Shown here piece after piece: positions 36,969 to 45,086 of a DNA stretch of 64,000 bases (position 1 is its first letter; every line of letters begins with the position of its first letter). The DNA comes from Mycobacterium adipatum (lineage in GTDB: Bacteria > Actinomycetota > Actinomycetes > Mycobacteriales > Mycobacteriaceae). The stretch lies in NCBI RefSeq assembly GCF_001644575.1, contig NZ_CP015596.1:1798001-1862000 (forward strand), written 5' to 3'. The notes beneath the pieces are model-generated. The model saw only the letters and a program-made list of their open reading frames with translations. It had not been told where the DNA came from and made no database searches. Both the position numbers and the translations under genes were made by a program.

Positions 36969-38726
36969 ATGCAGCCTGACTACGACGTCTTGATCATCGG
37001 CTCGGGATTCGGCGGTAGCGTCAGCGCCCTGCGGCTCACCGAAAAGGGATACCGCGTGGGGGTTCTGGAAGCCGGCCGGCGGTTTGCCGACGCGGACTTC
37101 GCGAAGACCTCCTGGAACCTGCGCAAGTTCCTGTGGGCCCCGCAGTTCGGGATGTACGGCATCCAGCGCATCCACCTGCTGCGTAACTGCATGATCCTGG
37201 CCGGAGCCGGTGTCGGCGGTGGCTCGCTGAACTACGCCAACACCCTCTACGTGCCGCCGGAGCCCTTCTTCGCCGACCCGCAGTGGCGGGATATCACCGA
37301 CTGGCGCGAAGAGCTCATGCCGCATTACGACCAGGCCCAGCGGATGCTCGGGGTCGTCACCAACCCCACGTTCACCGATGCCGACCGGATCATGAAGGAG
37401 GTCGCCGAGGACATGGGCGTGGGGGACACCTTCGTCCCGACCCCGGTGGGCGTCTTCTTCGGTGAGAACGGTGAGAAGACACCGGGCAAGACCGTGCCCG
37501 ACCCGTACTTCGGCGGTGCCGGCCCCGCGCGCACCGGATGCATCGAGTGCGGCGAGTGCATGACGGGCTGCCGGCACGGCGCCAAGAACACGCTGCTGAA
37601 AAACTATCTGGGCCTGGCCGAGTCGGCCGGCGCGCGCGTACATGCGCTGACGTCGGTGCGGTCGTTCGAGCAGCGCCCCGACGGCGTGTGGGAGGTGCAC
37701 ACCGTGCGCACCGGAGGCAAACTGCGCCGCCGGAAGAAGACCTTCACCGCCAATCACCTGATCCTGGCCGCCGGCACGTACGGCACCCAGAAGCTGCTGT
37801 TCCGGATGCGGGACACCGGGCGACTGCCCGAGTTGTCGTCGCGGCTCGGCGTGCTCACCCGCACCAACTCCGAGTCCATCGTCGGGGCCGGACGGCTCAC
37901 CGTCGGTGACGATCTCAACCTCACCCACGGCGTGGCCATCACCTCGTCGATCCACCCGACCAGTGACACGCACGTCGAACCGTGCCGGTACGGCAAGGGA
38001 TCCAATGCGATGGGTCTGTTGCAGACCCTGATGACCGACGGCACCGGTCCGGAGGGCACCGATGTGCCGCGCTGGAAACAACTCGTCGCGACGGCCAAGG
38101 CCGACCGCCGGGGGACGCTGCGCCTGCTGAATCCGCGGCGGTGGAGCGAGCGGACCATGATCGCGCTGGTCATGCAGCATCTGGACAACTCGATCACGAC
38201 GTTCACCCGCAAGACCTGGTTCGGTTACCGGATGCTGGACAGCAAGCAGGGTCACGGCCTGCCCAACCCGTCCTGGATCCCGGCGGGTAACGAGGTCACC
38301 CGCCGCATCGCCGAGAAGATCGACGGGGTGGCCGGCGGCACCTGGGGCGAGCTGTTCAACATCCCGCTCACCGCGCATTTTCTCGGCGGGGCCGCCATCG
38401 GGGACAGTGTCCAGACCGGCGTCATCGACCCCTACCAGCGGGTGTACCGCTACCCGACGCTGTATGTGGCCGACGGAGCGGCGATCTCGGCCAATCTCGG
38501 GGTGAACCCGTCGCTCTCGATCACCGCGCAGGCCGAACGGGCCGCGGCGCTGTGGCCGAACAAGGGCGAGGTGGATCAGCGTCCGGCGCAGGGCGAGCCC
38601 TATCGCCGGTTGGAGCCCATCGCCCCGATCCGGCCCGTGGTGCCGGCGCAGGCACCCGCCGCGCTGCGTCGGCTGCCGATCTTTCCGGTGAACTCGCAGC
38701 TGTCCAGCTCGCCGCAGGCCGGCTGA
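36969..38726 (+). CDS. choD: cholesterol oxidase-family GMC oxidoreductase
   Basis: FAD enzyme annotated in mycobacteria as ChoD; expected to oxidise a sterol or related alcohol, though ChoD is not the main cholesterol-degrading enzyme. The FAD fold is VLIIGSGFGGSVSAL and a GMC motif LAGAGVGGGSLNYANT follows. Between them and the substrate domain is a Cys cluster, CIECGECMTGC, unlike classical cholesterol oxidases. The C-terminus holds the GMC signature YVADGAAISANLGVNPSLSI (last 20 residues cited). The 585 residues match Rv3409c, and guaB3-choD order is conserved. Confidence 0.9.
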   Translation: MQPDYDVLIIGSGFGGSVSALRLTEKGYRVGVLEAGRRFADADFAKTSWNLRKFLWAPQFGMYGIQRIHLLRNCMILAGAGVGGGSLNYANTLYVPPEPFFADPQWRDITDWREELMPHYDQAQRMLGVVTNPTFTDADRIMKEVAEDMGVGDTFVPTPVGVFFGENGEKTPGKTVPDPYFGGAGPARTGCIECGECMTGCRHGAKNTLLKNYLGLAESAGARVHALTSVRSFEQRPDGVWEVHTVRTGGKLRRRKKTFTANHLILAAGTYGTQKLLFRMRDTGRLPELSSRLGVLTRTNSESIVGAGRLTVGDDLNLTHGVAITSSIHPTSDTHVEPCRYGKGSNAMGLLQTLMTDGTGPEGTDVPRWKQLVATAKADRRGTLRLLNPRRWSERTMIALVMQHLDNSITTFTRKTWFGYRMLDSKQGHGLPNPSWIPAGNEVTRRIAEKIDGVAGGTWGELFNIPLTAHFLGGAAIGDSVQTGVIDPYQRVYRYPTLYVADGAAISANLGVNPSLSITAQAERAAALWPNKGEVDQRPAQGEPYRRLEPIAPIRPVVPAQAPAALRRLPIFPVNSQLSSSPQAG

Positions 38727-38735
38727 GTCTCACCG

Positions 38736-40184
38736 CTACGTGACCGCGGCGGCGACCCTGTCGCCGAGATCCTTGTCCACGTTGCGCCAGTATTCGAAGG
38801 CACGCTCCAACACCGCATCGGACACCCCGTCGGAGAGGTGACCGGCGATGTTGGAGACCAGCCGGTCGCGCGCCGCGTCGTCGAGCACCTCGCGCACCAG
38901 CGTGCCGGCCTGGCCCCAGTCGTCGTCCTCGGCGTGCAGTGAGTACGCCGAGCGCACCATGTCGCCATCGGCATGCCACAACGGCTCGCCGGTGCGTGCC
39001 GGATCGGCCTTCGGCCCGCCGTAGGAGTTCGGCGCGTACACCGGGTCGGTGACGTTGGTGACCCGCATCGCCCCGTCCTTGGAGTAGCTGTTGACCTCGG
39101 TCTTCGGGGTGTTCACCGGAATCTGGCGGTAGTTCACCCCGAGCCGGGCGCGGTGCGCGTCGGAGTAGGAGAAGTCGCGCGCCAGCAGCATCTTGTCCGG
39201 GCTCAGCCCGGTACCTGGGACCGCATTGTTCGGCTCGAACGCCGCCTGCTCCATCTCGGTGTGGTAGTCGCTGACGTTGCGATCCAGGGTCAGCCTGCCG
39301 ACATCGATCAGCGGGTAGTCGCTGTGCGGCCACACCTTCGTCAGGTCGAACGGGTTGAACCGGTAGTTCTTGGCGTCCTCGAACGGCATGATCTGCATCT
39401 TCAACGTCCAGCTGGGGAAATCGCCCCGCTCGATCGAGTCGAACAGGTCGCGCTGGTGGGCGTCACCGTCCTGGCCGGCCATCTGATCGCCCTCGTCCTG
39501 GGTGAGGAACTCGATGCCCTGATCGGACTTGAAGTGGTATTTCACCCAGAAGATCTCGCCGGCGGCGTTGATCCAGCTGTAGGTGTGGCTGGAGTAACCG
39601 TTCATGTGCCGCCAGGTGCGCGGGATCCCGCGGTCACCCATCAGCCAGGTGACCTGGTGTGCCGACTCCGGCGACAGCGTCCAGAAGTCCCACTGCATAT
39701 CGTGGTCGCGCAGGTTGTTGGCGGCCCGGCGCTTCTGCGACCGGATGAAATGCTGGAACTTCATCGGGTCGCGGATGAAGAACACCGGAGTGTTGTTGCC
39801 GACCATGTCGAAATTGCCGTCCGATGTGTAGAACTTGGTGGCGAAACCGCGCGGGTCGCGCCAGGTGTCCGGGCTGCCGCGCTCACCGGCGACGGTGGAG
39901 AACCTGGTCAGCGTCTCGGTTTTCGCCCCGGGCTGCAGGAATGCGGCCTTGGTGTAGGCGCTGACATCTGCGGTCACTTCGAAATGGCCGAAGGCGCCAC
40001 CGCCCTTGGCATGCGGCTGGCGCTCCGGGATCCGCTCGCGGTTGAAGTTCGCCATCTGCTCGATCAAATAGTGATCCTGCAGCAGGATGGGGCCGTCGGG
40101 ACCGACGGTCAGGGAATGCTCGTCGCTGTAGACCGGTATCCCGGCGTCCGTGGTGGTCGGTTTGGGCTGTGTATTCGTCACCAT
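38736..40184 (-). CDS. katA: monofunctional haem catalase
   Basis: Breaks down hydrogen peroxide. The 482 residues fit small-subunit (clade 3) catalases. The distal His is in [14 protein letters not shown], the distal Asn in [14 protein letters not shown], and the haem-ligand Tyr in [12 protein letters not shown]. No signal peptide. The ATG at 40184 follows GAGAGGAG. It converges with choD and diverges from the urc operon. Distinct from KatG; not part of the M. tuberculosis core. Confidence 0.93.
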
Positions 40185-40373
40185 TGCTCCTCTCGAGCGT
40201 GCGTGCGGACTGCAAGGCCGTGTACCCCGTGCTCACGGATTCGACACCTGGCGGCGAATACTGCTGTGAGACTGCGATATTCGCACACCGAGCTGGTATG
40301 TCGGGGCGCTGATACGATGCAGGTGACAATGCCGTCGCCGCAGTTGTGAGGCGTTCGTCCGAGAGGAGCCGGC
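40185..40373. promoter_or_regulatory. divergent promoter region, katA versus urc operon
   Basis: A 189-base gap. TGCGA-TAT-TCGCA at 40273-40285 is a perfect inverted repeat near the middle and could be a shared operator. TACGAT at 40313-40318 may be the -10 of urc1, with GAGAGGAG just before its start. Confidence 0.5.
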
Positions 40374-41630
40374 GTGGGAACTGGTACAGATCGCGCCGGC
40401 GCGCGCCATATCCGGCTGACCTCGCACAGCGGGGGCGCCACCGCCGCGGCGATCCAGTGGGGCGCGCCCACACCGGCCGAGCGCGGCCCGGTGGTGGGCA
40501 CCACCGGCACCCGGGCCCATCGCAATGTCATCGGCACCCACAGCGGTTCCTACGGCGTCTACCGGGCGCTGGCGGTCGCCGCCGGAGCCCTCTCCCCGCA
40601 GCACCGCGCCGACCTGACCAACACCGCGCCGACCGATGTGATCGGCCCGCACCCGCAGTGGCAGGACCCGTCGGCCATTGTCAGCCTGGACCCGTGGGGC
40701 GCCGCGGTCGCCGACGTGTTCGCCGCCGAGCTGGAGGCCGGCCAGGACATTCGCCCGACGATCGCCGTCACCAAGGCGCACGTGATGCTGCCGGAGGTTG
40801 CCCTCGCCGTGCAGCAGGGCCGGTTGCGACCGGACGGCAAGGTGCTCCTGGACAGTGGAGCCGCGGTGGTGACCAAGGTGGCCGTCGAACCGGTCTGGTA
40901 TCTGCCCGGCGTCGCCGCGCGCTTCGGCTGCACCGAATCAGCCTTGCGCCGTGCACTTTTCGAGGAGACCGGCGGGATGTACCCGGAGCTCGTCACTCGT
41001 GGTGATCTTGAGGTCTTCCTGCCACCGATCGGCGGTCAGACCGTCTACATCTTCGGTGAGCCAAGGGATCTGGCCGATCCGTCGGTGGAGCTGACCGCCC
41101 GCGTGCACGACGAGTGCAACGGCTCCGATGTGTTCGGCTCCGACATCTGCACGTGCCGGCCGTATCTGACGCACGCGATCGAGGAGTGCATCGCCGGCAC
41201 CCAGCGCGGCGGGGTCGGTCTGGTGGCCTACTCGCGTAAGGAGGGTCGCGCACTCGGTGAGGTCACCAAGTTCCTGGTCTACAACGCGCGTAAGCGCCAA
41301 GTCGGTGGTGACACCGCCGATCAGTATTTCGCGCGCACCGAATGCGTGGCCGGCGTGCAGGACATGCGCTTTCAGGAACTGATGCCCGATGTGCTGCACT
41401 GGCTGGGCGTCACCCGCATCCACCGGCTGGTGTCGATGAGCAACATGAAGTACGACGCCATCACCGGGTCCGGTATCACCGTCGGGGAACGGGTGAACAT
41501 CCCCGACGACCTCATCCCCGCCGATGCCCGCGTCGAGATCGACGCCAAGATGGCGGCCGGCTACTTCACCCCGGGGCCGGTTCCGGACGCCGAGGACCTG
41601 AAGAACACGGTGGGCCGGGGCCTGGTGTGA
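40374..41630 (+). CDS. urc1: GTP cyclohydrolase II-like protein, URC1 type
   Basis: Homologue of GTP cyclohydrolase II assigned to the URC uracil-catabolic pathway rather than riboflavin synthesis. The zinc ligands are kept (VHDECNGSDVFGSDICTC, spacing C-x10-C-x-C), but an N-terminal extension of ~200 residues is added and the HRQEGR motif reads SRKEGR. The 418-residue length and the neighbouring urc4 and upp genes separate it from RibA. The reaction is thought to act on a uridine nucleotide ring; this is from family knowledge, not shown here. The GTG at 40374 follows GAGAGGAG. Confidence 0.82.
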   Translation: MGTGTDRAGARHIRLTSHSGGATAAAIQWGAPTPAERGPVVGTTGTRAHRNVIGTHSGSYGVYRALAVAAGALSPQHRADLTNTAPTDVIGPHPQWQDPSAIVSLDPWGAAVADVFAAELEAGQDIRPTIAVTKAHVMLPEVALAVQQGRLRPDGKVLLDSGAAVVTKVAVEPVWYLPGVAARFGCTESALRRALFEETGGMYPELVTRGDLEVFLPPIGGQTVYIFGEPRDLADPSVELTARVHDECNGSDVFGSDICTCRPYLTHAIEECIAGTQRGGVGLVAYSRKEGRALGEVTKFLVYNARKRQVGGDTADQYFARTECVAGVQDMRFQELMPDVLHWLGVTRIHRLVSMSNMKYDAITGSGITVGERVNIPDDLIPADARVEIDAKMAAGYFTPGPVPDAEDLKNTVGRGLV

Positions 41631-42829
41631 GCGCCGCAGCCACCCTGCGCAGCACCGCCGAGATCCGGGCCCGTTCGCAGCACCTGTTGACCAGGGCGCG
41701 GGACGGCTCGTCGGCATGGTTCACCGTGCACGAAGACGCCATGGATGCCGCGGCCGCCGCCGTCGCCGACCTCACCGTCACCCGGTTTCCCGATCTGGTG
41801 ATCCCGTTCCACAGCCGGTGGCGCCATTTCGAGGCCGGCGGGGTGCACCGCACCCTGGCGCTCGACGGAACCGATGCCGCCGCACGCGCCCGCGCGATGA
41901 TCGACCTGACCGTCATCAGCGTGCTGCTCGACGCGGGTGCCGGCCCGCGGTGGCGTTACCGCGAAGCCGACACCGGCCTGGAACTCACCCGGTCCGAGGG
42001 CCTCGGCGTGGCCAGCTGGCACGCATTCACCGCGGGCACGTTCTCCTCGGACCCCGAGTGCCCGCTGCAGGCCGACGCCGCCGGTCTGCAGACACTGGAC
42101 CCCGAGCGGCTGGCCGCGCACCTGCAGGTGGTCCCGGACAACCCTCTGGTCGGCTTCGACGGGCGGGTCGACCTGTTGCGCCGCCTCGGCACCGCGCTCG
42201 CCGAGCAGCCCACGGTCTACGGCACCCCCGGACGGCCCGGGGGACTGTTCGATCTGCTGATCGTCGATCCCGCCGCACCGACGGTGGCGACCCACGACAT
42301 CCTGAGTGCCCTGTTGTCGTCACTGTCGCGGATCTGGCTGGCCGACAATCACATCGATGGTGAGCCGCTGGGCGACTGCTGGCGACACGACGCGGTCCCC
42401 GGGGTGGGCGCCACCGCGGGCTGGATGCCGTTCCACAAGCTGTCGCAGTGGCTGACCTATTCCTTGCTGGAACCATTCGGCTGGGCCGGTGTGCAGGTGA
42501 ATGGGCTCGACGCGCTGACCGGTCTGCCCGAGTACCGCAACGGCGGGTTGTTCCTGGACACCGGTGTGCTGCGGCTGCGTGAGGCCGGGTGGGCCGAGCG
42601 CGCATGGACACCCGCCGACGAGCTCGTGGTGGAGTGGCGCGCACTGACGGTCGCCCTGCTCGACGATCTCGCGGTGCTGGTCCGCGAGCGCCTCGGCGTC
42701 AGCGCCCAGGCGTTGCCGCTGGCCTGCGTCCTCGAGGGCGGCAGCTGGGCGGCCGGCCGGGCCCTGGCCCAGGAGTTGCGCGGCGGACTGCCGCCGCTCA
42801 CCGTGATCAGCGACGGCACCGTGTTCTGA
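41627..42829 (+). CDS. urc4: URC4/DUF1688 protein, uracil catabolism
   Basis: A 400-residue DUF1688 protein. Recognisable family segments are [40 protein letters not shown] and [26 protein letters not shown], ending in [14 protein letters not shown]. In yeast URC4 is required to use uracil as nitrogen source, with unknown chemistry. Its GTG overlaps the urc1 stop (GTGA), so the two are translated together. Confidence 0.85.
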
Positions 42830-42843
42830 GGAGAGGATCTGCC

Positions 42844-43479
42844 ATGGCCCCATCGTCTGCGGTGCATGTGATCGAGCACCCGCTGGTCACTCACAAGCTG
42901 AACACCCTGCGCCGTAAAGACGTGTCCACCAACAGTTTCCGGCGCCTGGTCAGCGAGGTGTCGGCGTTGATGGCCTATGAGGTGCTGCGCGATATCCCAC
43001 TCCACGAAGAGCAGATCGAGACGCCGCTGGAGACCATGACCGCCAAGGTGATCGACGGCAAGAAGCTGGTCTTCGTATCCATCCTGCGGGCCGGTGGCGG
43101 CATTCTCGACGGCATGCTGAGCCTGGTGCCCAGCGCACGGGTCGGGCATATCGGGCTGTACCGCGACCCGAAGACCCACATCGCGGTGGAGTACTACTTC
43201 AAGGTCCCCAATGACCTGCACGAGCGCGACGTGGTGGTCGTGGACCCGATGCTGGCCACCGGCCACACCGCGATCGCCGCCATCGACCGGCTCAAGGAGC
43301 ACCAGCCGCGGTCCATCAAGTTCGTCTGCCTGCTCAGCTGCCCGGAAGGCCTGGCGGCGCTGCACGAGGCCCACCCCGACATCCCGGTGTACACCGCCGC
43401 GATCGACCGCCAGCTCGACGAACACGGCTATATCGTGCCCGGCCTCGGCGATGCCGGGGACCGGCTGTTCGGTACCTGA
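42844..43479 (+). CDS. upp: uracil phosphoribosyltransferase
   Basis: Makes UMP from uracil and PRPP. The 211 residues carry the PRPP loop [13 protein letters not shown], the [13 protein letters not shown] segment and the uracil-contacting C-terminal [16 protein letters not shown]. Within the urc operon it plays the role of yeast URC6, feeding uracil into the pathway as UMP, while also allowing salvage. It starts 14 bases after urc4 with GAGGAGAGG. Confidence 0.93.
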
Positions 43480-43483
43480 CCAC

Positions 43484-43489
43484 TACACT
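43484..43489 (+). promoter_or_regulatory. -10 element of guaA, leaderless
   Basis: TACACT sits so that +1 falls at 43496-43497, the first base of the guaA GTG. It lies just after upp, so guaA can be expressed independently of the urc genes. Confidence 0.65.
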
Positions 43490-43496
43490 GTCGCAG

Positions 43497-45086
43497 GTGG
43501 AACCAGCTTCTTTAGACGCTCTTCGCGCAAGCGCGTCATCGCAGACCCGCCCCGTTCTCGTCATCGATTTCGGCGCGCAGTACGCCCAGCTGATCGCGCG
43601 CCGCGTCCGCGAGGCGCGGGTGTTCTCCGAGGTCATCCCGCACACCGCGACGGTCGAGGAGATCAAGGCCCGCGATCCGCAGGCCATCGTGCTCTCCGGC
43701 GGCCCGGCCAGCGTGTACGCCGACGGTGCGCCGAAGCTGGATCCGGCGCTGTTCGATCTGGACGTTCCGGTGTTCGGTATCTGCTACGGCTTCCAGGCCA
43801 TGGCGCAGGCACTCGGCGGGACCGTCGCGCACACCGGCACCAGCGAGTACGGCCGTACCGAATTGAATGTCACTGGCGGCCAGCTGCATTCAGACCTGCC
43901 CGAGCATCAGCCGGTGTGGATGAGCCACGGCGACGCGGTCACCGAGGCGCCCGACGGCTTCGACGTGGTGGCGGTCAGCGCGGGGGCGCCGGTGGCGGCC
44001 TTCGAGAACCGGGCCCGTCGGCTCGCCGGGGTGCAGTACCACCCCGAGGTCCTGCATTCCCCGCACGGCCAGCAGGTGCTGAGCCGCTTCCTGCACGAGT
44101 TCGCCGGGATCGGACCGGCCTGGACGCCGGCGAATATCGCCGAGCAGCTGATCGCGCAGGTCCGCGAGCAGATCGGCGACGGAGAGGCGATCTGCGGGCT
44201 GTCCGGCGGGGTGGACTCAGCGGTCGCCGCGGCGCTGGTGCAGCGGGCCATCGGAGACCGCTTGACCTGCGTGTTCGTCGATCACGGTCTGCTGCGGGCC
44301 GGGGAACGCGCCCAGGTGCAGCGTGACTTCGTCGCCGCGACCGGCGCCAAGCTGGTGACCGTCGATGTCGCCGATCGGTTCCTGGAGGCGCTGTCCGGCG
44401 TCACCAACCCGGAGGGCAAGCGCAAGATCATCGGCCGCGAGTTCATCCGCGCGTTCGAGGGAGCCGTGCGTGACCTCGTCGAGGGCGAGGGCACGGTCGA
44501 CTTCCTGGTGCAGGGCACCCTGTACCCGGATGTCGTGGAGTCCGGCGGCGGTGCGGGCACCGCGAACATCAAGAGCCACCACAATGTGGGCGGCCTGCCC
44601 GACGACCTGAAGTTCACGCTCGTCGAACCGCTGCGCCTGCTGTTCAAGGACGAGGTGCGCGCCGTCGGACGCGAACTCGGCCTGCCCGAGGAAATCGTTG
44701 GCCGCCAACCGTTCCCGGGCCCGGGGCTGGGCATCCGCATCGTCGGCGAGGTCACCGCGTCCCGGCTGGACACGCTGCGCCGCGCCGACTCGATCGCCCG
44801 CGAGGAGCTCACGTCGGCGGGGCTCGACCAGCAGATCTGGCAGTGCCCGGTGGTGTTGCTCGCCGACGTGCGCTCGGTGGGTGTGCAGGGTGACGGGCGT
44901 ACCTATGGCCACCCGATCGTGCTGCGTCCGGTGTCCAGTGAGGACGCCATGACCGCGGACTGGACACGGGTGCCCTACGAAGTGCTGGAGCGGATCTCGA
45001 CCCGGATCACCAACGAGGTACCCGAGGTCAACCGGGTGGTGCTGGACGTGACCAGCAAACCGCCCGGCACCATCGAGTGGGAGTGA
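43497..45086 (+). CDS. guaA: GMP synthase (glutamine-hydrolysing)
   Basis: Converts XMP to GMP. The 529-residue protein has an N-terminal class I glutaminase (Cys in [16 protein letters not shown], His and Glu in VQYHPEV), then an ATP pyrophosphatase ([15 protein letters not shown]) and the C-terminal XMP-binding dimerisation domain ending [19 protein letters not shown]. It completes the guaB2-guaB3-guaA set of the window. Confidence 0.95.

Follow-up and report, generated by a model that had tools for sequence, protein, structure and literature searches.

A uracil catabolism operon in Mycobacterium adipatum and the predicted kinship of its Urc4 (DUF1688) protein with the nucleotide glycosidase Qng1

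The 6.05 Mb genome of Mycobacterium adipatum, held in two contigs, carries three intact genes, urc1, urc4, and upp, in that order and all on the forward strand, inside the 64,000-nucleotide stretch analyzed here (C1:1798001-1862000, hereafter the window). The urc1 gene (40374..41630, +) encodes a predicted UTP (uridine triphosphate) cyclohydrolase of 418 amino acids and starts with GTG, 5 bases after AGAGGAG (40362..40368, +), a likely ribosome-binding site. It shares a GTGA stop/start overlap (41627..41630, +) with urc4 (41627..42829, +), which encodes a DUF1688 protein of 400 amino acids, a predicted ribosylurea-5'-phosphate N-glycosidase with a Qng1-like fold. The uracil phosphoribosyltransferase (UPRT) gene of the cluster, upp (42844..43479, +), begins 14 bases past the end of urc4. 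The coordinates, strand, tight order, and overlap given in a preliminary description of this DNA are exact on direct reading, and its claim of a complete urc1-urc4-upp cluster is borne out by profile searches with models for URC1 and DUF1688. Pfam matches are PF12471 (272 bits) and PF00925 (56 bits) for Urc1, PF07958/DUF1688 (479 bits, model positions 2-420 of 420) for Urc4, and PF14681 (250 bits) for Upp; NCBIfam matches are NF005536 for Urc1 (788 bits) and TIGR01091 for Upp (270 bits), with none for Urc4 at E <= 0.001. What this mycobacterium carries is an ordinary, intact uracil catabolism (URC) operon of a widespread type; the new part is the predicted kinship of Urc4 with Qng1.

PF07958 is a family to which Pfam assigns no function. 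The first hint of its kinship came from a relative of Urc4 (P0174) with a precomputed match to PF10343 (Q_salvage) beside PF07958, a match that just passes the PF10343 cut-off (25.4 vs 25 bits). For comparison, 116 Urc4 proteins were aligned, comprising the window protein together with 13 of 120 and 102 of 120 sequences from two homologue searches; those left out were fragments, redundant, or omitted for space. Single-sequence Pfam scans found DUF1688 in all 116 and Q_salvage at E <= 0.01 in 20 (best 1.3e-5), with no family beyond these two; at E <= 10, Q_salvage was matched by five of the eight Urc4s scanned. The Qng1 alignment was built from the Q_salvage proteins of nine of the ten phylum genomes with a match. 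The tenth, a weak match at a contig start (L134, genome G190; 21.8 bits, below the cut-off), was dropped. When one of the nine was compared with PDB sequences, the five best matches were DUF2419 sequences (E 7e-33 to 2e-24).

Comparison of the Urc4 and Qng1 profiles by hhalign gave a probability of 95.5, an E-value of 1.5e-8, and a score of 67.4. Control scores were at most 22.7 for 100 column-shuffled versions, 22.0 for a reversed version, and 10-17 for profiles of Urc1 (first 60 of 115 sequences), Upp (first 60 of 115), and CodA (18 sequences) against either alignment. The Qng1 profile matched 29 of the 116 Urc4s at E <= 1e-3, and the Urc4 profile in reverse matched three of the nine Qng1 sequences at E < 0.01, in searches run with filters off, whose E-values are valid for these small sets only. 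The AlphaFold2 model of Urc4 is confident (predicted local distance difference test, pLDDT, 94), and all 11 Foldseek matches at E <= 0.001 are of the Qng1/DUF2419 kind. Taken from profiles, predicted structure, and Foldseek, Urc4 is a predicted relative of the queuosine-5'-monophosphate glycosidase Qng1/DUF2419 and is predicted to have its fold. The preliminary description had the family right but missed this kinship to a nucleotide N-glycosidase, the more interesting part. DUF1688 is not mentioned in PMC11592518, and a limited literature search found no earlier recognition of its link to Qng1.

The mutated residues of Qng1, K199 and D231, have counterparts in Urc4. K271 (codon 42437..42439, +) aligns with K199 and is Lys in 116/116 Urc4s, and E302 (codon 42530..42532, +) aligns with D231 and is Glu in 116/116. 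The segment E370-W374 (codons 42734..42748, +) has its ends aligned with D298 and W302 of Qng1; the first is Glu in 104 and Gln in 12 of the 116, and the last is Trp in all. In yeast, according to PMC7530994, the URC1 and URC6 products convert uracil to 3-hydroxypropionate and ribosylurea via uncharacterised steps, and the URC4 product converts ribosylurea to urea. Urc4 would fit this last step, because a Qng1-type enzyme removes the base from a 5'-mononucleotide. It is thus probable that Urc4 is an N-glycosidase of the Qng1 superfamily that uses a Lys271/Glu302 pair to free urea from ribosylurea 5'-phosphate, in which case URC would need two enzymes after UTP; we infer the substrate, its phosphate state, and the bond cut.

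Residues 5-417 of the 418 in Urc1 align with PDB entries 7EJ3 and 7EEV (774 bits, 82-83% identity), and the titles printed for both by Foldseek read UTP cyclohydrolase (the AlphaFold2 model of Urc1 is poor, pLDDT 54.5, and served only for printing these titles). Residues were counted over 112 loci, some of which represent the same genome twice. The zinc ligands C248, C259, and C261 (codons within 41115..41156, +), reported earlier as kept, are unchanged in 112/112. D330-M-R332 (41361..41369, +) aligns with the D-x-R of RibBA chain 4i14, and D330 and R332 are the same in 112/112; the Arg of this motif is presumably the residue proposed as nucleophile of GTP (guanosine triphosphate) cyclohydrolase II. 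RKEGR at 288-292 is likewise identical in every locus, and position 287 is Ser in 100 of them. The SRKEGR motif described previously is present at 287-292, but the RibBA of the host itself has RGHEGR in place of HRQEGR. Judged by its full-length similarity to 7EEV and its retained zinc cysteines, Urc1 is a predicted UTP cyclohydrolase. The earlier view of a GTP cyclohydrolase II-like protein stands insofar as Urc1 is not a riboflavin enzyme, but the protein is not unexplained, given its titled relatives. Since Urc1 is 82-83% identical to a titled UTP cyclohydrolase, the accompanying statement that the route is not fully resolved is partly out of date. A UTP cyclohydrolase was reportedly the subject of a 2021 paper.

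Beside the cluster copy, the genome holds a second upp above the cut-off (C1:4965304, 218 bits) and four more PF14681 matches, all weak. The cluster Upp is 40% identical to the second copy and 67-78% identical to the cluster copies of betaproteobacterial loci (72-78% where these are complete). The cluster seems to bring its own UPRT, because its Upp is closer in sequence to the betaproteobacterial cluster copies than to the second upp; a tree of 15 Upp sequences had no supported fork, and only the identities are used here.

The association of the three genes was followed in related loci, of which the best 80 of 576 confirmed are considered (Urc4 60-91% identical; neighbors counted by tblastn). 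By record title these belong to Mycobacteriaceae, Rhodococcus, Gordonia, other actinobacteria, and Comamonadaceae-type betaproteobacteria. The urc1 gene lies directly upstream of urc4 on the same strand in 80/80, and upp directly downstream in 79/80, two of these 79 being truncated where the DNA ends. The exception is L067, whose stored DNA stops 76 bases past the urc4 match. Such regular same-strand adjacency argues that the association is not due to chance. In genome samples, DUF1688 occurs in 4/296 from the phylum, host included, and in 72/198 from the host genus. By these counts of adjacency and of genomes, the URC cluster belongs to a known kind that is frequent but unevenly spread. Two distant actinobacterial clusters (L091 and L092; Urc4 42% and 38% identical) keep the gene order and have a strongly diverged UPRT (29% and 33% identical). 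The genome of L091 (G258) also has a Q_salvage gene, which puts the two sister families together in a single organism.

The guaA frame starts at 43497, after upp. The neighborhood with guaA noted in the preliminary description holds for this window but not as a general trait, as guaA is near the cluster in only 4/80 loci, those of this species and its closest relatives; a guanine-related reading of the cluster was rejected on this count.

For 32 loci identified as betaproteobacterial from their record titles (one, L069, reads only 'Proteobacteria bacterium'), neighbors up to 8 kb on each side were surveyed. Cytosine deaminase is found in 19/32 (the reference protein scores 799 bits, cut-off 438), and a Bmp/PnrA-like substrate-binding protein in 16/32; 26/32 carry at least one gene of these kinds, permeases counted too. 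A cytosine deaminase beside the cluster fits use of pyrimidine bases. The genome of M. adipatum has three PF00860 permease genes, all outside the window.

For the use of urea, the host genome encodes two different full-length urease alpha subunits (C1:3208034 and C1:1662654, loci L137 and L136; 861 and 1177 bits), and urease is present in 15/15 other urc-bearing genomes tested, taken from the 80 named loci. The later steps are not in the window, as stated earlier, but genes that may serve them lie elsewhere in the genome: the urease genes and a row (C1:4727707-4735545; L135:1708-9546) in which two DUF1989 genes accompany those for urea carboxylase (1729 bits) and allophanate hydrolase (727 bits). 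Such a set with DUF1989 genes, although named as urea amidolyase-type, is presumably typical of guanidine degradation, and an Rfam scan of this row gave no hit at gathering score. A yeast-like amidolyase route was considered and set aside: the carboxylase and hydrolase exist, but they sit with the two DUF1989 genes. The Rut pathway was also rejected, as the best of 19 matches to the RutA model (TIGR03612) reached 132 of 498 bits; among competing routes only Rut was searched for, not the reductive or oxidative breakdown of uracil.

These observations are best explained by a URC uracil-catabolism operon that acts through Upp, Urc1, and a glycosidase-like Urc4, with urease following, a reading to which we give a probability of about 0.75. 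Upp would convert uracil and phosphoribosyl pyrophosphate to uridine monophosphate (UMP), which housekeeping kinases would raise to UTP. Urc1, as a zinc UTP cyclohydrolase, would then hydrolyze the ring. GTP cyclohydrolase II releases pyrophosphate and leaves a 5'-monophosphate; by analogy Urc1 may release pyrophosphate as well, and a cyclohydrolase of this type would supply Urc4 with a 5'-monophosphate. The three-carbon piece would leave as malonate semialdehyde (3-hydroxypropionate in yeast), and ribosylurea 5'-phosphate would stay. The Lys271/Glu302 pair of Urc4 would cut the C1'-N bond to give urea and ribose 5-phosphate, and urease encoded elsewhere would convert urea to ammonia.

Several points weigh against this reading. 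Two acidic residues of Qng1 are replaced in the Urc4s, D231 by Glu throughout and the active-site D298 by Glu in 104 and Gln in 12, and the alignment of 116 holds no row named as fungal, so that the residue match need not extend to the yeast proteins. The window Urc4 has no PF10343 match at E <= 10 and is reached by the Qng1 profile only at E 0.71, and hmmsearch with the Urc4 profile against PDB sequences returned none up to E 10. Kinship of fold alone leaves the substrate of Urc4 unfixed, and the 5'-monophosphate as the Urc1 product is drawn from analogy. The queries used detected no importer, permease, or deaminase of the above kinds in the remaining 48 loci, among them those of mycobacteria; the nearest NCBIfam models of the importer are putative B6 transporters, below cut-off (best 88 of 400 bits), and its cargo is left unassigned. 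Urease, being common (82/296 phylum genomes and 5/5 of the host genus among them), is permissive and lends weak support.

The changed acidic residues, together with a sequence similarity to Qng1 that is remote only, would suit an operon of the same purpose in which Urc4 keeps only the fold, acting on another bond (for example by deacylating a ring-opened intermediate) or binding nucleotides, with a different hydrolase splitting ribosylurea. This appears unlikely in view of the unchanged K271, E302, and W374 in 116/116, the adjacency of urc4 to urc1 in all 80 loci, and the placing of yeast URC4 at the step from ribosylurea to urea in PMC7530994. An operon that trims UTP/UMP pools or salvages nucleoside carbon, instead of using uracil as a nitrogen source, would account for the consumption of UTP expected from the titles of the solved Urc1 relatives and for the PnrA-like importer beside 16/32 betaproteobacterial clusters, but it too is improbable: the upp of the cluster and the cytosine deaminase in 19/32 of those loci point to free bases, urease is present in the genome, and the URC loci of L. 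kluyveri allow growth with uracil as sole nitrogen source, according to PMC7530994. That urc1 is a second riboflavin ribA can be regarded as highly improbable. Its PF00925 match is outweighed by scores far below the ribA cut-offs (TIGR00505, 45.5 vs 205.85 bits; NF001591, 58.1 vs 148 bits), by the identity to UTP cyclohydrolase, and by a separate RibBA-type open frame elsewhere in the genome (424 residues, motif RGHEGRGIGL). The earlier warning that a riboflavin annotation would be wrong is upheld, and the separate ribA that it proposed to look for exists.

If the URC reading with a glycosidase-like Urc4 is true, the pathway after UTP consists of a cyclohydrolase that leaves a urea-base nucleotide and a base-cutting enzyme from the DNA-glycosylase fold, and the substrates of the Qng1 fold are widened to a one-carbon base, urea. 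For DUF1688, one of the three families of the cluster, the Qng1 match names a chemistry, two mutable residues, and a substrate, so that a urea-releasing step common to fungi and bacteria could be tested in one assay.

Upstream of the operon lies a gene for a small catalase (482 amino acids; 38736-40184, -), divergent from urc1 across a gap of 189 bases; such a catalase is near the cluster in 3/80 loci. Beyond it is a cholesterol-oxidase-like GMC oxidoreductase (36969-38726, +), whose substrate is left unassigned because its score of 573 bits is below the cut-off of 850. An Rfam scan of the window gave no match, and a promoter/terminator scan of 40150-43560 found none, a scan that says little for a mycobacterium.

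Among known systems, the URC pathway of yeasts (URC1/URC4/UPRT in Lachancea kluyveri and urg1-urg2-urg3 in Schizosaccharomyces pombe) uses the same three families as the cluster described here. It differs in that no regulator was found among the five neighbors scanned with Pfam in M. adipatum, and in that urea here probably passes to urease and not to urea amidolyase. Between Urc1 and the UTP cyclohydrolase of 7EEV/7EJ3 no difference was found beyond ordinary sequence divergence. Urc4 is longer than the Qng1 chains matched by Foldseek (400 vs 315-344 amino acids), has Glu and Glu/Gln where Qng1 has D231 and D298, and stands next to urc1 in 80/80 loci; the window protein falls below the PF10343 cut-off of 25 bits. 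Its predicted fold also resembles that of helix-hairpin-helix DNA glycosylases (AGOG, endonuclease III, OGG1, and MutY), which act on DNA; this likeness is far weaker than that to Qng1 and within the range that may reflect a common helical arrangement.
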